From positions 24,058,563 through 24,122,562 of the forward strand of contig CP141145.1 in assembly GCA_035235625.1 (NCBI GenBank): a stretch of DNA of 64,000 nucleotides, given 5' to 3'. Source of the DNA: Saururus chinensis (lineage: Eukaryota > Streptophyta > Magnoliopsida > Piperales > Saururaceae). The position numbers and the translations under genes were made by a program. Under the pieces are notes generated by a model. It was not told the origin of the DNA. It saw only the letters and a program-made list of their open reading frames with translations, and searched no databases. Shown piece by piece: positions 3,177 to 51,610 of the stretch; the stretch's first letter is position 1; each line of letters opens with the position of its first letter.

Positions 3177-3707
3177 ATGAAGCAAACCCAAAATTCTCGT
3201 CTTCTTCGAGGGGCGAACAAAAATGAGACGAAGAGAGAATGGGGAGCGGCCTCTCCCGCCTCCTCGGCACCTCCTGCCTCTGCCCCGCCGGCGGCGTGGA
3301 TCTCGACTGCGCCGCCTCCGATCAAGGAGTTGAACTTCACAAGCCCAGCATATCATTTCCCAACCAGGCTCTCCTCTCCTCTTCCCATCTCTTCTCTCTG
3401 CCTCTGCGACTTCTACTCTGCACTAATGGCGGGCTCCAGCGTTCTTGGACGGCTGACCAGAGGATGATGAACTGGCTTCTCTGGCGGACGTGGAGGAGGC
3501 CTGCTTCCCCGGTAAAGGCCCGGTCTACCCATCCTTTGAGAGGCGGAAGCCAATTTTCAGAGCGTTTCCTTCTTCTGTATCCTGTCACTAGCCCAGGTCG
3601 GCGAGGTTTCATGACTCCTGATTCGGAGAGGCCCATCATTTTCTACATGCATGCTTGCTTTCTCTGTAGAAAGCCGCTCTCTCAGAACAAAGATATCTTC
3701 ATGTACA
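3177..3707 (+). pseudogene. Composite gene fragment ending in an FLZ (FCS-like zinc finger) half-domain
   Basis: The 3' end, about 3645-3707, encodes CFLCRKPLSQNKDIFMYR and stops at a TACAG|GTTAGC donor. This is the first half of the plant FLZ domain (CxxC then the DIFMYRG turn), a SnRK1-binding scaffold domain, cut at what I recall as its usual intron position. The second half (GDTPFCSxECR) is not found downstream. Immediately before CFLC the expected HFL(D)AC is disturbed by what looks like a 4-bp CATG duplication, so the upstream frame is not continuous. The GC-rich sequence before it (ATG at 3239, and a frame around 3470-3540) does not look like FLZ protein and may come from other genes. 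I read this as a chimeric, non-functional fragment. Confidence 0.5.
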
Positions 3708-3846
3708 GGTTAGCATCACCTTCCGCTGGTTCTGTCCCTTCGATTTGCCTATGTCTATTCTCCTTTAAGCTGATAACGTTTTGGGTCCGTGTCTACTGGT
3801 CATCTGTTTCAGTCAAGATGTTTTTCTGGGCTTATGGGTTTTTTTT

Positions 3847-4330
3847 TTAGGAAAAAAATGAGGCTTTTTGAACTTCCGACTCAAATTCCTTTTCCACCTC
3901 AGCCCTTCCTCTCACCGGCGCTTCCAGATCCAATCTCATCCTGCCAGCTTCTCCCATGAACTCCACATTCGTCTTTCGCAGATCCTCCACCTTCAGTTTC
4001 AGCAAGCCGACTTCTTCATCCCGGGAATCAAGATCTCTTTCACAAAGAAGCCGATCCTTGCCTTTCAGGACTTCCCCGATGCTCACCTTTGACTCCGCCT
4101 TCTCTGCGTCCAACTTTGCCTTTAGTTTCTCCTTCTCCACCTGAAACCGCTCCAGCTTCTTAATGAAACCATGCTTATCCCTCTCTGGGCCGGTGACCAG
4201 CTCCCGCAAGGCATGAGACAGGATGGTGCGTTCGACCGTCTGTTGAACCTCGGACTCGATCGATTCGTCCAGCAGGAGGGAAGTCTAATGGAGGAGGACT
4301 TGGTTGTTGAGGGAGGCGCGAGTGAGATGG
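3847..4330 (-). pseudogene. Fragment of a coiled-coil protein gene
   Basis: The minus strand encodes about 120 residues, preceded by about 20 more in frame, that are almost entirely heptad-like: strings of Glu, Lys and Leu such as KLERFQVEKEKLKAKLDAEK and EEVGLLKLKVEDLRK. The frame closes after a short unrelated tail at 3847. GC content and codon choice look like real plant coding sequence rather than the AT-rich surroundings. The type is that of plant long coiled-coil proteins; I cannot name a family. It sits only about 140 bp from the FLZ fragment on the opposite strand, as in a composite of captured gene pieces. Confidence 0.45.
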
Positions 4331-6978: not shown

Positions 6979-9677
6979 TCACTCAATTGCTTCTTGCACT
7001 CTTGCTTTGGGGACGATCAGTAGGGGAGGTTCCTTTTGCAATGTCAACCCGAACTTCTCTTCCATGATCAACTGGCTAGGGTCCATCCCATCTGGCAGTC
7101 CTATATCAAAGTTATGCACCACAGAAGCCACAATCAGATGAATGAACTGGGTGGCCAATGGTATGCCCGGGCATATCCTTCTCCCAGCACCAAAAGGGAT
7201 GAGCTCAAAATCATTCCCCTTATAGTCCACATGGGACTTCAGAAACCGATCCGGAGAGAACATTAGTGGTTCTTCCCAAACACTTGAGTCTCTTCCAATG
7301 GCCCATGCATTCACCATAATCTGGCAGTCCTTTGGGATTGTATAGCCAAGCAGTTGGCATGATTCTAATGCACGGTGGGGAAGGAGAAGTGGAGTCGGGG
7401 GGTGTAGACGAAGTGTCTCTTTCACGCAGGCTTGGAGGTAAGGTAGGCGAGGAAGATCAGTTTCCTTGACTGGTCTGCAGCCAATTTTTGTGTTGAGTTC
7501 TTGCTTAAGCTTGGACATGATACTGGGGTTCTTGATGAGTTCTGCTACAGCCCATTCTATGGTGGACGCACTGGTCTCTGTTCCAGCGCCAAACATTTCC
7601 TATTGTATCAGATAGTAAGGTTAGCCGTGCATGATTGCCATTAAAATAAATACTTCCTCCCTCCCACGTTAATAGTTCCATTTCGTTTTTCATAGTGAAC
7701 GTTCACTTAAAAAAAATCTAAATGGAGGTATTAATGCGGGACAGAGGGTGTACACAGATAATCCATTGCCTAATAGCTTAAGCTATTATAAAAAATGGTA
7801 TCAGAGCTCCATGGGTTTGGGAAGTATTTAACTAGGGATACCACTCGGGTCGGGTAACTGGTAAACCCGACCCGACCCAATCCTAATAGGTTGGGTTTAA
7901 TTTTTAAAAATAACCCTAATGGGTCGGGTCGGGTTTTAGTGATCTAACCCGACCCGACCCGAATATAAATATAAATATAAAATTTTTATTTTTTAATATT
8001 ATTTTTTTAAAAAAATTGAAAAAAAAATAATAAAAATATATAAAAATTATTTTTTTAATCTATTTGGGTCAAACGGGTCAGGTTCGAGTCGGGTCGGGTC
8101 AAGTTAGGTTCGGATCACAGCTTTGTGATGTGGGTTCGGGTTTGACAAAACCCGACCCGGTGACATCATTATATTTAACAATTCTATGGTTGTGATTGTT
8201 TTATTATTCCAATGAAAATTTCTAGCACGATTTAACTATGACACCAAATAATACAGAATATTATGTAGTTTGTATTTTCAATTATGGTAAGAAAGAATTT
8301 TTAAATTCCAATTTTAGATGATAATATTAATTATGTGTTCTAATTATGTGTTTATACAAAAATAGTTTTCGAAGAAATAAAATTTAAAATAATAAAAACC
8401 CATACATGAGTTTTGGTTGGACTTAAAAAATGGGCCTCATGCAAGGTTCACTTGGCTTACTTATCCAATCCAATAAAAACTCATGTATGAGTTTTGATTG
8501 TATGTTTTTTATGTGTAGATATTATTTTCTATAGAAATCCATAAAAGTATGGTACAACACATAAAAATACCCAAGCATGTTCTCCTCGAAAAGTTCATTA
8601 AGACATATCTTGAAATATCTTTAAAAAAGTATTTCCTCTTTCAACATTAATTATCTAGATTTGAAAAATTATTCAAGATTAATTGTCCTATTTCATGTTA
8701 ACTTTGTCGTAGTAATGAGTGGATGAGGTAAAAAGAGTTAATGTACAGAGTAAAAAGGTTAACAAATTGGGTTTCTTAAATGAGGGAGTATCATTACTAG
8801 GAAGAGTGTTGTGTTGAGAGCTTACCATGAGCAAAGCATTAATCTGGTGATCATTTAGTTTAGCCTCCAGCAGAACACCAACAAAATCATGACTTGCTTC
8901 ATCATGCTTGCTCTCTCTGCGTTCTCTGATTATAACATTCCATGTATCATATATCTGCTGAAGACAATGTCCAACTGCTTTCCTCTGCCCAAGAAAGTCA
9001 GTTTCTCCCAGTATTGGAAAGTAGTCAGCTGGATTGGTGGCATTCCCCAGCTCCATTAGCCTCCATATATGCCCCTTCATCTCTGCACTCCCACTCTCAG
9101 GATCAGCCAAGTTGAACACATCCTTGGAGAACATCAAGTGACCAAATATGTTGAACAGTGTACCAAACACTACCTCTGCTACTTTAACAACTTCTCCTTC
9201 TTTCCCTCTCAAGAACTCGACCATTTCCGCAGACTTCACTTCTCTCAGGTGGGCCTGAGCCTCAATCATCTTCGGCGAGAAGAGCTCAGTCCGGCAGATC
9301 CTCCGGAGCATCTTCCAGTAGTCATTGCACTCGGACCACACCATGGAGTATTCGACATGGTTCTTGATCCTGAAGTTGTGGAACACGTACCGGCCGGAGA
9401 AGACGCGATCGTGGGTCTTAAGGATCTCGGCAGCAGCTGAATGCGACGAGGCAACGACCGCCGTCTGGGCCCCGAGCTTGAGGGTGAAGAGATGGCCGTA
9501 GGATTGGGCCAGGGCGGCCAGTGTGGCGTGGGGCATGTCTCCTAGTTGAAGGAGGTTGCCCAAGAAAGGCCATGGATAGGGGCCTGGCGGAAGGCCCTTT
9601 GGCCGAGGGTCTCTCAAGACGAAGTAATAAATGAGGAAGATGAAGGAGAGCAAGAATAGAAAAGAGAGAGCATCCAT
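6979..9677 (-). CDS. CYP80B: Cytochrome P450, CYP80B-like; likely N-methylcoclaurine 3'-hydroxylase
   Basis: Two exons, 9677-8826 and 7599-6979, joined in phase 0 (ATG|GTAAGC donor, AATAG|GAA acceptor; intron 1,226 bp), encode 490 residues, the usual P450 length. In order: a membrane anchor (about 3-21), the hinge PPGP (30-33), the I-helix AGTETS (289-294), ETLR (345-348), and the heme loop FGAGRRICPG (420-429) with Cys 427. From memory, SGRYVF, VWSECN, CRTELF, STIEWA and FGLTLQKEPPL are typical of CYP80B rather than CYP80A or CYP80G. CYP80B enzymes sit in the ER and 3'-hydroxylate (S)-N-methylcoclaurine on the way to reticuline. The gene looks intact. Its intron holds a Stowaway MITE and a CCCGACCC-rich repeat. 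It is head-to-head with a matching methyltransferase gene. Family confidence is high; the exact substrate is inferred. Confidence 0.93.
7653..7750. mobile_element. Stowaway MITE in the P450 intron
   Basis: A 98-bp element flanked by TA on both sides, with ends CTTCCTCCCTCCCACGTTAA and (reverse complement of the right end) CACCCTCTGTCCCGCATTAA. It lies 50 bp past the splice acceptor of exon 2 in the plus direction, i.e. near the 3' end of the intron. Confidence 0.8.
7841..8166. repeat. CGGGTCGGGT-ended repeat in the P450 intron
   Basis: Left end GGGATACCACTCGGGTCGGG; the reverse complement of the right end reads GATGTCACCGGGTCGGGTTT. The ends are inverted and rich in GGGTC. Related ends occur near 42574 and around 47190-47370, so this is a small dispersed family, probably a non-autonomous DNA transposon. 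Confidence 0.55.
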
Positions 9678-9904
9678 TAGAGGGCCTTAGCGATTGAAGC
9701 TAAGTAGTTGTAGGAAGCTGTTTGGCTCACTTAAATGACAAGAGGATCTCATTCCTTACGCTAGACTCACAATGACCGCGAACCATAAAAATACAAAAAC
9801 GTTTCCGGAGAACTGTTGGATATATTCCTAACTTTCTCTCTCATTAATTTAATGTGGCATCTTCTCATCAGTCACTAAGCCTTGTTCTGTACATGAAGTC
9901 CTTT

Positions 9905-9992
9905 TCTGTTGGGGCAAGTGGAAAACTGGCACAAGATCTTTCTGCTGGGGCAAGTGGAAAACTGGCACAAGATCTTGCTGCTGGGGCAAGTG
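9905..9992. repeat. 36-bp tandem repeat, about 2.4 copies, in the divergent promoter
   Basis: The unit contains GGGGCAAGTGGAAAACTGGC and ACAAGATCTT; copies run 9905-9940, 9941-9976 and a partial 9977-9992. The first two differ at one base. It lies about 230-315 bp upstream of the P450 start codon. Confidence 0.9.
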
Positions 9993-10051
9993 CATGATTG
10001 TCTCAAGTGCCCACGAGATCCTCGCCTCTAACAGCCGGATTAGCAGCTATG

Positions 10052-10057
10052 CACGTG
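10052..10057. promoter_or_regulatory. G-box CACGTG
   Basis: A palindromic CACGTG in the context GCACGTGGGA, about 375 bp upstream of the P450 start. It is a bHLH/bZIP-type site by sequence; function is not shown. Confidence 0.45.
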
Positions 10058-11014
10058 GGAAGAGGCACTACATCATGCCAATCTGAGAATTTTGCCTGAA
10101 CGTCTAAATTACGTCTGCCTGTAGCTTCCAAATAAAAACTACACCCGGTAGGCCCACCACCATGTGAGCGGACGGAAAGAGGAGGCCTTTGCTCTATCTG
10201 CTTCTTCCTCTTCCCAGGAATTCACTATTGAAGATTTAAGTCGTTTCTATATACGATTTTATCCTGTTTCTATTTTATTTATTATCCCCGAAAGTAACCT
10301 TTCTCTTTCCTTGGGCAGTACCTCGCAACAAGATTCATTTGTGCCTTTTTATTGATTTTGACGATTGGATCTCTTTATGAATGGAAAAGGGGGTGCTGCC
10401 TTGCTACAGTTGACGTCCTATGTAGACCTCCTGCTTCTTAGCACTCAATCTCACCCTTAAAGACTATGCATAGGAAGATGACTCCCTCTTTGAAGTCTCT
10501 CTCTTCTAGACCACTATACATGGACACTTTGGTCACTCTCTCTCTCGGCGCTCTTAACCTCCCTTACTTCTTAAAAAAGAAAACAGTATATTAAAAAAAA
10601 TAAATAGATTTATCCCTTACTTAATCACACAAAGCTCTTCGAACCTTACTTTTTCGTACCAGACACGTCTCTAAAATTTCATGTCGTTTGACTCATTTGC
10701 GACGGGTCTCACCATGCTTGCTTTTCTTTCTCTTTCTTTTTTGAATTAAGTTCCATCAAACTATACCTGACATAAACATGGGGCCGGAACATTTGACTGG
10801 AAAAACGTTCCTATTTGAGTCATTTCTTTACAAATTTGTTATACTTGAAGACATGATTGAAAGCAAGTTCTTCACGACCATGGAATCAACATCCAGTATA
10901 TGTTGTCCGGTTTCTTTACCAACTCATCCAAAGAAGAATTTTTCATGCTCCTTTCTTATAATGAGTCTAATTTAAGGATACATGTAAGCCCTTTAATATT
11001 TAAGATTGCTAATA

Positions 11015-11020
11015 CACGTG
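11015..11020. promoter_or_regulatory. G-box CACGTG
   Basis: A palindromic site in the context ACACGTGT, about 360 bp upstream of the methyltransferase start, roughly mirroring the distance of the other G-box from its gene. Confidence 0.45.
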
Positions 11021-11259
11021 TTAGAGTATTTTAGTACTAATATCATTTATGCTAATATGTACTCTAGTATGTTGACTATTAATCTTATGAATGAAAGGTT
11101 TTATACATTCTTTACAATAGTCTCAGTGTCAGAATATTAAAAATGCTTTCTTCATACAAATGGAGTTATTGGCTGTATATGAGAAATTAGGTTTGAAGCC
11201 AGTGAATCTTGCTCAAATTTCATCATAAACTACAGGAGGTTTCTCCTAGACGGTTTGGG

Positions 11260-11267
11260 TATATAAA
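11260..11267 (+). promoter_or_regulatory. TATA box of the O-methyltransferase gene
   Basis: TATATAAA lies 112 bp upstream of the ATG at 11379, which would place the transcription start near 11290-11300 and leave a 5' UTR of about 80-90 bp. Confidence 0.65.
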
Positions 11268-11378
11268 TGACTGAAACTAGACCGAATTCATCATACTAGA
11301 CAGCAGGAAGGATCAAATCCTTCCTCACCCTTTGTAAGACCCCTTCTCTAAATCTTGAAGGGTCTCATCAAAAGAGAG

Positions 11379-12528
11379 ATGGAATACCAGATTTCAGAGG
11401 TGGAGGAGGCTGTAGACACTCACACTCACACGCAAGCCCAATCCCACCTGTGGAAACTCATCTATGGCTTTGCCGAGTCCCTGGTCCTGAGATGCTCTGT
11501 AGAGTTAGGCCTGCCAGACATCATCAACAGCCATGGTGGGCAGATCACTCTCTCAAAGCTTGCATCAAACCTCCCTTATTCCCACGTTAACACCGACCAC
11601 TTGAGGCGAATCATGCACTTCCTGGTCCACATGAAGCTCTTCAACCTGCAGGAGACTCCAGCAGGGGACGAGGTCTATGGGCTTGAGCCTGCAGCCCAGA
11701 TGCTCCTCAAGGACTCAGAGACGAGCATGGCCCCAATTGTTCTGGGCATGATCCAGAGAGATTTGACAGTGCCATGGCACTTCATAAAAGACGGTCTGAG
11801 ATGTGAAGGGACAGCATTTGAGAAGGCTATGGGGATGAACATATGGGACTACTTGCAGACCCACCCTGAGAAGAGCCATCTGTTCAATGATGTCATGGCC
11901 GGTGAGACCAGGCTCCTTACAGCTTCTCTGGTCACTGGCTGCAAAGATATTTTTGGCAGTGTAGAGTCTGTAGTAGATGTTGGAGGTGGCAATGGTACCA
12001 ACCTCAAGGCCATTTCAAAGGCCTTTCCTCATATTAAGTGCACTGTCTTTGACCTCCCTCATGTTATTGACAATTCACCGGCCATCCCTGGCCTGAATCG
12101 AGTTGCAGGAGACATGTTTCAGTATATTCCAAGAGCTCAAGCCATAATACTGAAGGTATGTGTATGAAGCTTTCAAAAGTAAAGTGTTGGGTCTTTCTCC
12201 TTGCTAATGGGTCTGTTGGTGTTGAATGCAGCTTATCTTGCATGACTGGAGTGACGATGATTGTGTGAAAATTCTGAACAGATGCAAGGAAGCGGTGCCA
12301 GAGGAGGGAGGGAAGGTGATCATTGTAGATGTGGTATTGGATGGCAAGGACGAGGACCATTTTAGCAAGCCAAGAATGGCGTTGGACATTGATATGTTGG
12401 TGTACACGGGAGGGAGGGAGAGGACCGAGGATGACTGGAAGGCGTTGATACTGAAAGCTGGGTACAAAGGTTTCAAGATCAGGGATATTGGTGCCATTCA
12501 GTCTGTGATTGAGACATCTCCCTTCTAA
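11379..12528 (+). CDS. 4'OMT: Benzylisoquinoline O-methyltransferase, 4'OMT-like
   Basis: Two exons, 11379-12155 and 12232-12528, joined in phase 0 (AAG|GTATGT, TGCAG|CTT; intron 76 bp), encode 357 residues, normal for this family. An upstream in-frame TTG is not a start; the ATG at 11379 is used. The N-terminal half carries the dimerisation fold (LWKLIYGFAESLVLRC, 24-39). The SAM-binding loop VDVGGGNGT is at 199-207, FDLPHVI at 224-230, GDMF at 244-247, and the catalytic His in LILHDW is residue 263. From memory, EKAMGMNIW, MAGETRLLTASL and RERTEDDW match (S)-3'-hydroxy-N-methylcoclaurine 4'-O-methyltransferase better than norcoclaurine 6OMT, but the two are close relatives. The enzyme is cytosolic and makes reticuline from the product of CYP80B. 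A possible poly(A) signal AATAAG is at 12569-12574. The exact regiospecificity is uncertain. Confidence 0.92.
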
Positions 12529-21189: not shown

Positions 21190-22165
21190 TTAAAATTAAA
21201 AACTCTAATTAGATTCTATTGTCTAAATTATCATAAAAGTGTAAGGTATTAACCACATTAAATATCATAAAATTTTAAAAATTAAATAAAATATTTTTAT
21301 GGGATAGCATGATATTGTTATAGCGTAAAAAGGTAAAAAAACTCATACAAAGACAAATTTTGAAAACTCTAATTAAATTCTATTATCTAAATTATCATAA
21401 AAGTGTAAGACATAAATGACATTAAATGTTATAGAATTTTAAAAAATTAATGAAGTATTTTCATGAAACAGCATGCTAGTGTTGTGGCGTAAAAGGACAA
21501 AAAAAAATTCGTACAAGGATAAAATTTGAAAACTCTAATTGAATTCTGTCTAAATTATGATAAAAGTATAAGGCATTAACGACATTAAATGTTATAGAAT
21601 TTTAAAAATTTAATAAAGTATTTTTATGGGACAACGTGATAATATTGTGGTGTAAAAAGGCAAAAAAATCTTGTACAAGGACAAAATTTGAAAACTCTAA
21701 TTGAATTATGTTGTCCTAATTAATATAAAAGTGTAAGGCATGAACCACATTAAATGTTATAGAATTTTAAATATTTAATAATATATTTTCTTAGGACAGC
21801 ATGACAGTGATGTTGTGGAAAAAGGCAAAAAAAACTCATTAAAGAGTAAAATATAAAAACTTTAATTTAATTATATTGTGTAAGTTATCATAAAAGTGTA
21901 AGGCATGAACTATATTAAATGTTATAGAATTTTAAATATTTAATAATGTATTTTTTTTAGGACAGTATGATAGTATTATTTCGAAAAAAAATAAAAAAAC
22001 TCATTAAAGAGCAAAATTTGAAAACTCTGATTCAAGTTTATTGTCTAAATTATTATAAAGGTGTAAGGCATGAACTACATTAAATGTTATAGAATTTTAA
22101 GTATTTAATAACATATTTTCATTGGACAACATAATAATGTTGTGGCAAAAAAATAAATATTAAAA
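21190..22165. repeat. Tandem array, unit about 165 bp, six copies
   Basis: The phrase AAAACTCTAATT recurs near 21197, 21364, 21529, 21691, 21856 and 22021, each followed by AAAAGTGTAAGGCAT and TTATAGAATTTTAAA blocks, giving a 160-167 bp period. The units are AT-rich and clearly diverged from each other. The array ends close to the broken HSP70 gene. Confidence 0.85.
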
Positions 22166-35430: not shown

Positions 35431-36320
35431 CGCATATACGATAACTTGATATGTCAATAAAACGTATTTTTGATAATACGATATATATTCTTTGAGCCAA
35501 CAACCCATAATATGATATCCTCTATATTGCATATACGATAACACAATATTTGTCATAGTGTGTTATCGATAACAAGATATGCTAATAATGTCTGCTATTG
35601 ATAATACAATATGCTACAATATCCTATATATTGCATATACAATAATACGATATTCGCCAAAGCATGTTATCGATAACAAGATATTTGCTATAGCGTATTA
35701 TTAATAACATGAGATTCGCCATAGTGTGTTATCGATAACATGATATTATGGCATAGCATGTTATCGATAATACGATATGCCAACAGGACGTGTTATTTAT
35801 TTTCATCTATGTCGCATATACTATAATATGATATTCATCGTAGCGTGTTATCGATAACACGATATTTGCCATAGCGTATTATCAATAACACGATATTCGC
35901 CATAGCGTATTATCGATAACACGATATTCGCCATAGCGTGTTATCAATAACATGATATTTGTCTTAGCGTGTTATTGATAACACGATATTCGTCATAGCG
36001 TGTTATCGATAACACGATATGCCAACAATGTATACTATTGATAATACAATATGCTATGATATCCTCTATATCACATATATGATAATACGATATTCGCCAA
36101 AGCGTGTTATCGATAACACGATATTTTGGCATAACGTGTTATCAATAACACGATATTCGCCATAGTGTGTTATCGATAACACGACATGCCAACAATACGT
36201 GTTGTTGATAATACAATACGATACAATATCTTCTATATCGTACATACGATAATACAATATTTCGCCAAAGTGTGTTATTAATAATACAATATTTAATTTA
36301 GCGTGTTAGTGATAACACGA
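35431..36320. repeat. Array of palindromic units built on CGTGTTATCGATAACACG
   Basis: Roughly 890 bp of repeats, basic period about 31 bp (TAGCGTGTTATCGATAACAC followed by GATATTCGCCA), with variants. Many units hold a perfect 18-bp palindrome centred on ATCGAT. Longer spacers with CTATATCGCATATACGATAA recur about every 150-200 bp, suggesting a higher-order pattern. Confidence 0.9.
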
Positions 36321-36392
36321 TATTTTAGTTCATCTTGTTCTTCACACTGTTTTTGTTTTCAAACAGTGTGAAGAACAAGATGAACTAAAATA
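36321..36392. repeat. Perfect 32-bp inverted repeat with an 8-nt loop
   Basis: The left arm 36321-36352 (starting TATTTTAGTTCATCTTGTTC) is the exact reverse complement of the right arm 36361-36392; the loop is TTGTTTTC. No mismatch was found. It abuts the palindromic array. Confidence 0.95.
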
Positions 36393-37110: not shown

Positions 37111-39212
37111 TTAGTGTATATCAAAATACTAAAAATGTAAACTAAAAACGACAGTCATCAAAACCAACAACAAATGAAGAAAATGCCCATCTCCTAGTGG
37201 AAGACATAGCAGAGCATCCAGAATATTGTCACAAAAATTATTCACGTAAAAAAATAATGTAAGGAAGCTAAGCTGATTAAGATAATTGAACGAACAATCA
37301 AATCATTTCATAATTCCAGTTAAAATTGCGTCAAGTGCAATCCTATACAAGCATCAGTTTGCAAAGGAGTTCATGTCGACATATATACTTCCCCCTGCTT
37401 CAGAAATCTAACAAGCCTGCTTGGAAATGCTTCATATTAATTTACTGTCAACTTTGATTGGATAATTTTGCAGTCAATCACGAGTAACTAGAAAAGAAGT
37501 TAAAAAATCCAAAACGTTCTAATTTACACAACCTCAAAAACAATTTTTTGGTCAAAATGAAGAAGACAAACAATGAACAAACTCATAAATATCCAAAATT
37601 TGTTTAAAAATTAATGTATGGATCTATATTAATATATATTACAACAAAAATGATTATTAGCAATGCTTGTTATAAAAGCATCGCTAATGACTATTAGCGA
37701 TGCTTATTATAAAAGCATCACTAAGAGTCCAATCCCTAATGCTAATTAGAGAAGCTTTCATATGTGTCGCTAATAGTTAGTTATTAGCGATACTTATATC
37801 TGCGTTGCTAATATCAAATTTTTTTTATGACACTTTGTAAAGCGTCACAAATGGTAAATTATTGGCGATGCTTATTTACATGTGCTGATAAAAATTAATT
37901 ATTAGCAACTTGTTACAAAGCATCACTAATAAAAAGATATTCTAAAAAACATTAAAAATTATTAGCTACGCTGATTTTGGCGTCGTTAAAAAGAAAAATA
38001 AAAAAATTATTAACGACACTTTGAAAAGTGTCTCTAATAAAAAAATAAAAAAATATTAGTGATGCTTTTAAACACTTCACTAATAAAAAGGAAATATTAA
38101 AAAAATTATTAGCTACGCTTTTAAAAGCATTTCTAATAGAAAAATAAATATTAGTAATGTTTTTAAAAGCGTCGTTAATAGAAAAAAATAAAAAAAATCC
38201 CACCTCTGGTGGGATTTCAATGATGGGCTTTGACTAGGGGGAGGGCCTCCGGCAGGATCCGGGAGAAGAAGAGGGGAGGGGCTCTTGCCAAAGGCTGCCG
38301 AAGCTAGGGGAGTAGCTACCTAAGGGAGGCGGGCTGCGGCGGACTGAGGGGCTGGCAGCTGCCCAAGGGGGAAGGGCTGAGGGGCGGACAACGGACTGAT
38401 GGGCGCGGGCAGCGGCCATAGGGGAGAGGGCGGGATGGGGGAAGAGGGGTGTTTTATGTCCTGTGGGTGAAAATTTCACCGCACAATTAGAAATTCTCCC
38501 TTGCGGGCAAAATTTTTTTCCACTCGGACGAAATAAAAATTCATTTATTAGTGATGCTTCTAACTATGCGTCTCTAATAATAATCTTTTTGCGATGCTTC
38601 CTTAGAAGCTTCGCGAATAGAGATTATTTTTAAAATAAATAAAATCCTCTCTTGCTACCCCCCTCTCACTCTATACACTCTCTCTCCTCTCACTAATTTT
38701 TTATTATATATTATATTTTAAAATTAATAAAATAAAGTTACAATTTATTGTAGCAATGCATAGCAACATGAGTCGCTACTACCCTAAGTAGTCGCAATGC
38801 ATATGTTTATGTGTTGCTACTACTTAGGGTAATAGCCACGCATTTTGCTATGCATTGTTACTATAAATTTTAAAATTATTTAAATAATAATTTAAAAAAA
38901 TATTTACTGATTTAGACCACTTTGGGAAATATTTTCCACAGTGGTATTACTTTTTGCCACGCAGATGCTAGCCAAGCAGCTACTGGCGCTTGTATGACTT
39001 TTTTTTTATGTGATTTCATCCTTTGAAAGGACGAAATCAAGTTTAAGTTGATTTCGTCATTTCAAATGACAAAATCATTTTAAAAAAAATTAAGTGATTT
39101 CCTCCTTTAAAAAAAGACGAAATCACGAAATCACATGAATTTTTTAAAAAAAAGTGCATGGAGTTGTCATTTCTCTGTCACGATTACATGATCTTGCTGG
39201 TGTCGTCAGGCT

Positions 39213-40452: not shown

Positions 40453-41039
40453 CAATAACCTATTGTCGCCGTCGCCACCCTCTAGAAGGGTGAGTCGTGG
40501 CAGCTCTCTGTGCCGAGCAACTGGTCGGGCCGGACGCTTTGCACGATGGAGGCTAGAGCCCAGGTGGTTCTGGGGCTGGTTCTCGGTGCTTCTAGCCTTA
40601 CCGACATTGTGGCCCAAGTTGCAGGAGATGCCCAACCAGCTGCATGGGTTCGGGTGGGATGGGAAGCCCCATGGTGAAATCGTCATTCGAAACAACAAAA
40701 TCACCTTAGCGAATTCACTTAACTTTTTTTATACGAGAAGGACGAAATTAGCTTTAAGTGGATTTCGTCCTTCCAAATGATGAAATTAGGTAGGGGGAAG
40801 GTTTCGTCGTTTCAAATCAACTTAAATTTGATTTCGTCATTCCAAACAATAAAATCAGTTAAATTTTTTTAAAAAAAACCACATAGGCGCCAGCGGCTTC
40901 GTGGTAAAAAACAACATCACTTTAGAAAATATTTCCCAAAGTGGTTTAATTTGGTAATTATTTTTTTTAAATTATTATTTAAATAATTTTCTCTTTAATT
41001 TATTTATTTTAAAATATAATATCTAATAAATAAATTTAA

Positions 41040-48972: not shown

Positions 48973-51610
48973 TTACTCAGTAAAATGTGGTTTAGCAACC
49001 ACACTGAGATTCGACGCCTTTAGCATTGTGAGGCCAAACACGTCTCCCAAATCTAAATCTTTAGGCTCAACTCCACTTGGAAGCTCCCAATCAAAACTGT
49101 GAAGAAGCTGTGCAAGAGCTAGATGCACACTCGCCTCTGCAAATGTCATTCCAGGGCATATTCTCCTCCCAATTCCAAAGGGAATGAGCTCAAAATCCTG
49201 TCCCCTGTAGTGAATAGAACTGCCGACGAATCTCTCAGGTACAAAAACCTCCGGGTCCTCATAACGAGTTGGATCCCGATTTATAGCCCATGCATTGAAG
49301 ATGAACCTCGTTTTAGGAGGAATTCTATACCCTTTTATGCTGACTTCTTCCATGGATTCTCGTGGAAGCAGAAGTGGCAGTGGAGGATGTAGACGGAGAG
49401 TTTCCTTGATCACAGCTTTTAAGTAATGCATGTTAGGTATATCACTCTCCATAACCCATTTCCTTTCTCCCATTACGCTTCTGACTTCCGCTTGAGCATT
49501 CCTAAGCAGCCTTGTATTCAACATTAGTTCTGTCATCCCCCATTCCAGTGTCACGGCTGATGTGTCTGTCCCTGCACTGAACATGTCCTGATAATAGATA
49601 GCATTCAAAGGTCAAATGAGTTTCAAGCATAGCTGATGATTTTTATGGGTTTTTGCACTTGAATATTATCTTCGGAATGAAGAAAATTTAGAACTTAAAA
49701 TAAAAAAATTCTTCTAAACCCTGACCACGGTCATCAACAGTTCTTAGTGCCGAGAAAAGACACTGGCCACAGCTGCTGTACGTGAGCCACCCTTTCCCTC
49801 CTTTATGAAACGAGATGTACTTCTTGTATTATTGAAAAAGTGATATTTAAAAAACAAACGCATCTATTTGCACCTCAGTGCCCTATTTTACTCATATAGT
49901 GTTATCGGGGCATTGAAATAATTATTAGGGTATATATAGACATTTTAGAAAAATAATTTTTTCCTTACAATAAATGTTTCATTTGCTTAACTGTTAACTA
50001 TTTTCTTCTCTTACACAATTTTTATGTATATTTCTCTGAAAATATCTTTTAATAGCTTTTTCTAAGTGCTAATTAAAAAAAGTAATTTAAAATTTTTTTA
50101 AGTGATACAAGATAGCTTTAATATTTAACTTTTTCAAAAATAGACTAATTTGAGGATGGAGGGACTAATAAAGTGTATAGGAGTATTATCTTATGATAAG
50201 TAAGCTTATCTTGGTAAAAGTTTATTACTCCTGTTACATCCTTATATCTTTTAAGATATCTTCTCATTTATAAGTGCATCCATCGTTAAGATCTAGGCGG
50301 GGGCACGTACTAGTAGAGGTCAATAACATATCCTGGAGGATAGGTGGGAGGATCACCCTATCCTAACAGTGAGTTTAACAGTAGTGTTGCAGTCTGTGAT
50401 TGGTACAACTGACGCACCCGGCGGCACGGCCAGGAGTAGACCCAGGTGCCTCTTCAAACCGGCACAGTACTCACTGGATTGGCTGACAGGGTTTAGAAAT
50501 CAAGCGGGTATTCATAAAACAAAGAAAAATGTTTACGTGACTTTAAAAAACGTACCTAAAAAGTCTACTTCATCTTTCAATATCATTAAATGGTCCAGTG
50601 ATTAGAAGACGAAGTAGACTTTTTAACGTCACGTTAACATTCCTATAAAACAAAAAGAGACAAAGACGTACCAGAATTAGAGCCTTGACATTATCCATGG
50701 TTAAGGCCACGTCAAAGCTGCCATTCTTCTGTATGTCTAGCAATATGTCCAGGACTCTTTTCTCAGTAGTCGCTCTCTTGGGATCAAGATGCTCCTCAAT
50801 CAATTTATCAAAGAGCACATCGAAACGCTTAAATAGTCTCCCAATTTTTTGATTCAACCCAGTGATGGAGTTAATCCATTCCAAGGCAGGAAAGAAGTCT
50901 GCCACGATGAAACCCCCCACCGTGACTTCTAACTCTTCTAGCATACTATGGAACCCATATGTTTCATACTCGCCACCTTCAGAAAAAATCCGCCCAAACG
51001 CGGCCTTGCATACGAGATCGTTGGCATAGGACCCAATCTTTTCACTTAGATTTACAGGTTTGGGATATGATGATCCAACTCGTTTAACTAGACGAGCAAT
51101 CCCTTCTCGCCGAAGTTGGCTAAAAGATTGGACTCTTTTCGCACTGAACAGCTCCTGTGTGCAGATCTTCCTAACTTGCCTCCAGTAGTGACCGTAGGGT
51201 GAGATGGCTATGTCAGTGCGGCTGTAGGTTAAGACTTTCGTAGAGGAGAGTTTAGGTCTGTTTGAAAGAACAAGATCGTGGTTCTTCACCGCTTCTTTCG
51301 CTATCTCAGCAGACGAGATGACAATGGTTGGTACCTGGCCGAGTTGCAGGTGCATGATGGGCCCGAATCTCTGTGCAAGGTTGCGGAGGGAGAGATGGGG
51401 CATGCTGCCCAGCTGGTGGAGGTTGCCGATGATTGGTAGACCTCGTGGGCCTGGTGGAAGTGAAACGTCGTTGTAGCGTTTCCCAGTCTGCTTCTTGAAT
51501 AGCTGCCATAGCAGCAGCGCCAGCAGAGATGCAACGAGGAAGGAAAAGAAAAGGGTGAGGACAGACTCGTCTTTCATGGAACCTTGCAACAGACCCATGG
51601 ATATTGCCAT
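48973..51610 (-). CDS. Cytochrome P450, CYP71 family
   Basis: Two exons, 51610-50672 and 49587-48973, in phase 0 (CTG|GTACGT donor, ATCAG|GAC acceptor; intron 1,084 bp), encode 517 residues. A membrane anchor lies at about 18-36, the hinge PPGP at 52-55, I-helix AGTDTS at 318-323, ETLR at 375-378, PERF at 430-433, and the heme loop FGIGRRICPG at 450-459 with Cys 457. WRQVRKICTQELFSAKRVQS and RGLPIIGNLHQLG are typical of CYP71. These ER monooxygenases act on terpenoids, alkaloids and phenolics; the subfamily and substrate cannot be read here. A TATA box (TATAAAG, minus strand) is at 51693-51687, about 80 bp upstream. The gene looks fully intact. It lies 36 kb from the alkaloid gene pair and in one copy of a tandem duplication, and the other copy lacks it. 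Confidence 0.93.

Follow-up and report, generated by a model that had tools for sequence, protein, structure and literature searches.

A 64-kb stretch of chromosome C6 of Saururus chinensis (Saururaceae, Piperales, a magnoliid; C6:24,058,563-24,122,562), in the following called the window, carries a cytochrome P450 gene and an O-methyltransferase (OMT) gene that are arranged head to head and probably encode a CYP80B-type N-methylcoclaurine 3'-hydroxylase (NMCH) and a 3'-hydroxy-N-methylcoclaurine 4'-O-methyltransferase (4'OMT). We put the probability that both enzyme identities are correct at roughly 0.8. In the established order of the pathway NMCH precedes 4'OMT, whose product is (S)-reticuline (PMC5981371). 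Both genes are intact and consist of two exons. The P450 gene on the minus strand (9677-6979) has a product of 490 aa and the OMT gene on the plus strand (11379-12528) one of 357 aa, and they are transcribed away from each other from start codons lying 1701 bp apart. An initial annotation had proposed two complete divergent genes at a distance of 1.7 kb, which our gene models confirmed, the outer coordinates 6979 and 12528 being exact. In a Pfam scan of eight selected reading frames of the window, by which further genes in the window may be missed, the P450 protein matched p450 with 345 bits and the OMT protein matched Methyltransf_2 with 189 bits and Dimerisation with 72 bits. With a P450 and an OMT side by side, the locus is a gene pair in the sense of adjacent metabolic genes of distinct origin (PMC9298681). 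Its parts, in window positions, are the following.

8826-9677, minus strand: P450 exon 1 (start codon at 9677), CYP80B-type, residues 1-284 (gene model, Pfam, tree)
7600-8825, minus strand: P450 intron, GT-AG, phase 0 (gene model)
6979-7599, minus strand: P450 exon 2 and stop codon; I-helix FGAGTET (residues 287-293), haem motif FGAGRRICPG (gene model, alignment)
9678-11378, no strand: gap of 1701 bp between both start codons, candidate shared control region (gene model)
11379-12155, plus strand: OMT exon 1 (start codon at 11379), 4'OMT type (gene model, Pfam, tree)
12156-12231, plus strand: OMT intron, GT-AG, phase 0 (gene model)
12232-12528, plus strand: OMT exon 2 and stop codon; catalytic His in HDW (gene model, alignment)

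The minus-strand gene would encode NMCH, a membrane-anchored P450 that would use O2 and NADPH-P450 reductase to convert (S)-N-methylcoclaurine to 3'-hydroxy-N-methylcoclaurine. The product of the plus-strand gene would be a dimeric S-adenosylmethionine-dependent enzyme methylating the 4'-OH of the new catechol, which would yield (S)-reticuline, the intermediate from which most benzylisoquinoline alkaloids (BIAs) branch off. CYP80A/G-type P450s encoded elsewhere in the genome could then carry reticuline to aporphines. S. chinensis makes aporphine-derived lactams. We infer the substrates and products of both enzymes, the membrane anchoring of the P450 and the dimer state of the OMT.

Identity of the P450

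A tree of nine sequences, in which CYP80B1 and CYP80A1 were the only CYP80 references, both of them provisional sequences, placed the window P450 beside CYP80B1 of California poppy with a support of 100/99 (64% identity). Two other P450s of the Saururus genome, located at C2:10.08 Mb and C2:14.74 Mb, grouped in the same tree with berbamunine synthase CYP80A1 at 99/99. The I-helix provided a distinction that holds independently of these provisional references, as it reads FGAGTETSA in the window P450 and FGPGSDTSS and FGPGSETSS in the two CYP80 genes on C2. The canonical oxygen-activating I-helix is (A/G)GX(D/E)T, and the form with Pro is a mark of phenol-coupling CYP80s. The canonical, hydroxylase-type sequence is present in the window P450 and the Pro form in the two C2 proteins, so the Saururus genome separates a hydroxylase-type CYP80 in the window from coupling-type CYP80s on C2. 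In lotus CYP80G, the exchange P288A lowered the activity (PMC10815925); P288 probably corresponds to the Pro/Ala site of the I-helix, because the Ala of the window P450 is residue 289. An I-helix rule for CYP80 was also looked for in PMC4858744, and none was found in the accessible parts of that article.

Identity of the methyltransferase

The OMT was placed in a tree of twelve sequences whose 4'OMT and 7OMT references were likewise provisional sequences; the sole check of the provisional references was that the Coptis japonica 6OMT among them proved 98% identical to the solved chain of Coptis 6OMT2. The window OMT grouped with the two 4'OMTs at 100/98, and an OMT of the same genome at C6:28.28 Mb grouped with the 6OMTs, the solved ones included, at 90/92. 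Identity of the window OMT was 57% and 54% to the 4'OMT references of Coptis and Papaver, 53-55% to 6OMTs, and 39% to 7OMT. The margins between 4'OMT and 6OMT are small and the grouping in the tree is well supported; we regard the residues of the substrate pocket as more decisive. Among the best 60 of 95 PDB matches, the highest scores were 418 and 409 bits for two entries of Coptis 6OMT2 and 414 bits for Thalictrum 6OMT. SchOMT2 (331), PoOMT1 (270), and an isoflavone OMT (262) scored lower, and the first chain with the name COMT reached 199.

For the pocket comparison, 13 positions of Tf6OMT were taken from PMC6730481, with the numbering verified for 13/13. At position 169, 4'OMTs have Glu, 6/7OMTs have Asp, and SOMTs have His, Phe, or Gly (PMC6730481). 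The window OMT carries Glu at the position of Tf6OMT Asp169, and the 6OMT-type protein from C6:28.28 Mb carries Asp. Over all 13 positions, the window OMT was identical to both 4'OMT references at 12 and to Tf6OMT at 8, while the C6:28.28 Mb protein was identical to Tf6OMT at 12. The window OMT also keeps the equivalents of the catalytic His, Asp, and Glu (H256, D257, E315), of the 1-BIA nitrogen-binding D306, and of M307. The CYP80B-like and 4'OMT-like character proposed for the two genes in the initial annotation is supported by the trees, by the I-helix, and by the pocket residues together with the published subtype rule; in the phylogenies, set against provisional references, neither gene fell outside the CYP80B or the 4'OMT group.

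Copy number and genomic context

In genome searches in six frames, whose match counts are lower bounds, the matches listed included no further close and intact copy of either gene of the pair. The next P450s of the same genome, with identities given for exon 1 and exon 2, were those at C2:10.08 Mb (62%/48%), C8:26.41 Mb (60%/47%), and C2:14.74 Mb (56%/46%), and no other P450 exceeded 62% identity among the 103 matches listed (87 of 759 candidates scored). Besides the window OMT itself, the 122 OMT matches listed (114 of 192 candidates scored) held just two close copies, both of them broken fragments, with 91% and 87% DNA identity.

C6:7,673,131-7,673,999 (7.67 Mb), no strand: broken OMT fragment
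C2:44,730,240-44,730,890 (44.73 Mb), no strand: broken OMT fragment

Both fragments have the same 5' breakpoint (window position 11468) and retain intron sequence. A flank of about 240 bp is common to both, and in the C6 copy it recurs in inverted orientation at the opposite end. Because of the shared breakpoint, the retained intron sequence, and the common flank that recurs inverted, capture of the OMT fragments by an inverted-repeat DNA transposon fits better than a duplication of the pair. No P450 was found in the approximately 6 kb upstream of either fragment. A duplication of the pair as a unit was considered and rejected, as the other OMT copies are broken and have no P450 upstream. Within the window, positions 38865-39124 and 40736-41011 are 71-88% similar over 32-316 bp to the DNA upstream of the OMT fragments and perhaps belong to the same transposon family.

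The pair stands apart from the other candidate families for early steps that were searched, because no match to Bet_v_1 (NCS-type; 15 listed) or to the CMAS family (CNMT-type; 19 listed) lies within 1 Mb of it, and the 6OMT type is 4.2 Mb away. The latter forms a tandem group of 6OMT-like genes on the same chromosome (C6:28,237,000-28,283,000; L012, L013, and L014), in which the one copy placed in the tree has Asp169 and an in-frame stop interrupts the L014 copy. All listed matches to the CMAS family are located on other chromosomes or more than 10 Mb away. A wider cluster around the pair was therefore rejected for the OMT, Bet_v_1, and CMAS families, further families not having been searched. 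As a separate observation, seven CMAS-family exon matches fall within 0.56 Mb at C8:16.78-17.34 Mb, 3/7 of them with an internal stop.

About 36 kb from the pair, the window contains a second complete two-exon P450 gene (48970-51610, minus strand; exon 1 ends at 50672, exon 2 starts from 49587), which we judge to be CYP71-like and for which we see no known link to the reticuline pathway. The same chromosome has more P450 matches at 24.77-24.93 Mb. Other features of the window are an FLZ-type zinc finger match (32 bits) in an open frame at 3227-3847 on the plus strand, about 3 kb from the P450 gene of the pair, and HSP70 pieces on the minus strand from 24010 down to 22379. The latter comprise an N-terminal stretch and a 229-aa piece equivalent to HSP70 positions 113-334 of 599 and are possibly a pseudogene. 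Two tandem arrays are present at 21192-22153 (unit of 165 bp, 5.9 copies) and at 35642-36324 (units of 31 and 167 bp).

The intergenic gap

The 1701 bp between the start codons contain the following features.

9903-9992, no strand: tandem repeat with 2.5 copies of a 36-bp unit and CAAGTG E-boxes beginning at 9915, 9951, and 9987 (repeat and motif scan)
10052-10057, no strand: G-box CACGTG at a distance of 375 bp from the start codon of the P450 gene (motif match only)
10933-11148, no strand: copy of a dispersed repeat, about 220 bp (genome matches)
11015-11020, no strand: G-box CACGTG at a distance of 359 bp from the start codon of the OMT gene, within the dispersed repeat (motif match only)
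11260-11267, plus strand: TATA-box-like sequence, 112-119 bp before the start codon of the OMT gene (motif match)

Seven overlapping motif classes were tried, and the figures are uncorrected. There are 12 E-boxes compared to 6.1 expected, a number reached in 5/300 shuffles and inflated by the tandem repeat, and two G-boxes compared to 0.1 expected (3/300 shuffles). The gap is not enriched in W-boxes (3 vs. 2.4 expected) or MYB sites (4 vs. 4.8 expected), and it holds no GCC-box (0.1 expected). The dispersed repeat was covered by 36 of the 39 other genome matches listed for the gap, which had 69-82% identity (40 of 269 candidates scored). Taken together, the motifs and the repeat weakly favor, and to some extent speak against, a shared control region. 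Co-regulation of both genes by the 1.7-kb gap may occur; on these data we lean against it.

Comparison with known clusters and gene pairs

The same two consecutive reticuline steps are linked on one chromosome in Stephania japonica and S. cepharantha, for which a conserved cluster of one CYP80B (CYP80B2) and two 4'OMTs, reported as generally co-expressed, has been described (PMC10879537). The Stephania cluster occupies about 80-180 kb, has two 4'OMTs, and belongs to a ranunculid eudicot, whereas in the magnoliid Saururus one gene of each kind forms a head-to-head pair with 1.7 kb between the start codons. Early reticuline genes of different families also lie close together in a second Stephania grouping, CYP80B1 with three 6OMTs (PMC10879537), and in S. 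yunnanensis, where NMCH, two CNMTs, and two 6OMTs are found near each other (PMC11767795). These groupings concern other steps; in Saururus the 6OMT type is about 4.2 Mb off and the CMAS matches listed are farther away. The gene pairs EAS-EAH of Capsicum and DODA-CYP76AD1 of Amaranthaceae resemble the Saururus pair in that two adjacent genes of different origin serve one pathway (PMC9298681). They belong to other pathways, and for EAS-EAH a bidirectional promoter has been reported, whereas that of the Saururus pair is hypothetical. The noscapine and thebaine clusters of opium poppy link BIA genes of different families as well, but they cover late branch steps and comprise many genes (PMC7055283). 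A biosynthetic gene cluster, strictly defined, has three or more gene origins; the noscapine cluster qualifies as one, and the Saururus pair, as judged by the families searched, does not (PMC9298681).

The initial annotation had stated that reported BIA clusters concern late steps and that a divergent pair for core steps would be a different kind of unit. The former does not agree with the linkage of CYP80B and two 4'OMTs in Stephania (PMC10879537) or with the NMCH/CNMT/6OMT grouping (PMC11767795). The latter has to be given up as well, since adjacent non-homologous metabolic gene pairs, some with a bidirectional promoter, are an already established category (PMC9298681). New are the magnoliid setting and the unusually tight head-to-head geometry, the linkage of CYP80B with 4'OMT itself being already published.

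BIA genes are scattered in most genomes (PMC11109638). In lotus, leaf transcripts of both CYP80B and 4'OMT are missing (PMC5981371); NnCYP80B is annotated in this species (PMC10815925), and the loss of both transcripts would weakly fit the idea that the two steps go together. Lauraceae-specific syntenic blocks with 4OMT have been described, in the accessible text with no statement on CYP80B membership (PMC10030967), and the CYP80 genes of Aristolochia contorta are distributed over four chromosomes, again with no OMT link stated there (PMC8973263). The same pair was not found in other magnoliids in the accessible literature on Lauraceae and Aristolochia, supplementary files aside. No head-to-head CYP80B-4'OMT pair was seen in the accessible text of the articles consulted, and among the titles and abstract openings found in the literature searches none dealt with the pair in S. 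chinensis.

Alternative explanations

Three alternatives were weighed. The two enzymes may be assigned correctly and be neighbors by an accident of gene order or ancestry, with separate promoters and an adjacency that has no regulatory role. We give this explanation a little under an even chance. A compact shared promoter would be expected to be shorter than 1.7 kb, the dispersed repeat makes the gap unlike a compact bidirectional promoter and would part two independent promoters, and the OMT gene has a TATA-like box of its own. In opium poppy, 0/8 reticuline genes are clustered within 100 kb and 4/8 within 500 kb, and raised co-expression is seen among non-clustered BIA genes, too (PMC7055283); Coptis has no BIA cluster (PMC8172641). 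In the Stephania cluster, CYP80B and one 4'OMT are high in roots, and the other 4'OMT is a leaf gene (PMC10879537). On the other side stand the linkage of CYP80B and 4'OMT in Stephania, too, for which its authors describe general co-expression (PMC10879537), and the low chance, about 1e-4, that single-copy genes for two consecutive steps become adjacent. Based on published gene counts, the probability that two given single-copy genes are adjacent by chance is about 6e-5 to 1e-4, and about 2e-5 for a head-to-head arrangement; with 20-40 pathway-family genes assumed, 0.015-0.06 chance-adjacent pairs are expected per genome. These probabilities are uncorrected for the choice of the window by an earlier reader.

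The two proteins might also be BIA-family enzymes that act on other substrates, such as coclaurine or an aporphine, or methylate a 3'- or 7-OH, in which case the pair would make no reticuline; we consider this improbable. The window OMT has Val at the position of Gly165, where BIA OMTs show Gly or Ala in a "strong semi-conservation" that is no strict requirement, the residue providing a main-chain carbonyl (PMC6730481). BIA OMTs are promiscuous, and Table 1 of the same article lists several enzymes with two or more activities (PMC6730481). Lotus NnCYP80B was inactive on N-methylcoclaurine (PMC10815925), so that the family name is no guarantee of activity. Further reservations concern the enzyme assignment as such. 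Another P450 gene of the genome, at C8:26,408,362-26,410,888, has the canonical I-helix FTAGTDT and is a second candidate without a subfamily assignment; its product shares 52% identity with the P450 of the pair and came out next to the CYP80 sequences in the nine-sequence tree. The CYP80B, CYP80A, 4'OMT, and 7OMT references were all provisional sequences, and no chain named as a BIA 4'OMT occurs among the best 60 of 95 PDB matches to the window OMT. Against other substrates stand the remaining 12 pocket positions, which equal those of the 4'OMT references, the hydroxylase-type I-helix of the P450, and the presence of separate 6OMT-type and CYP80A/G-type genes in the Saururus genome.

That the genes encode an unrelated general P450 (CYP76-like) and a phenylpropanoid-type OMT with a superficial alkaloid likeness is very improbable: the best solved relative of the window P450 is ferruginol synthase CYP76AH1 and no CYP80-named chain is found among the best 60 of 304 PDB matches, but CYP76AH1 shares 38% identity and is kept apart in the tree, in which the window P450 stands beside CYP80B1 (64%), and the top three solved matches of the OMT are 6OMTs, which at 409-418 bits score above SchOMT2 (331), the isoflavone OMT (262), and the first of the chains named COMT (199).

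Implications of the probable CYP80B-4'OMT pair

The assignment of the pair as NMCH and 4'OMT, together with the looser cluster in Stephania, makes the age of this linkage testable, namely whether it is older than the magnoliid-eudicot split. One conceivable scenario, which we hold to be rather unlikely at present, is that the linkage represents an ancestral module for the last two reticuline steps that predates this split, was kept in Saururus, survived in Menispermaceae in a looser form with a duplicated 4'OMT, and was broken in Coptis and poppy. The Saururus pair likewise makes testable whether a single control region sets the flux into reticuline, and with its native gap it offers a defined two-gene cassette for expression in Nicotiana or yeast. 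If the ancestral module existed, core steps and not late branches alone would seed BIA clusters, similar to the ancient TPS-CYP blocks.

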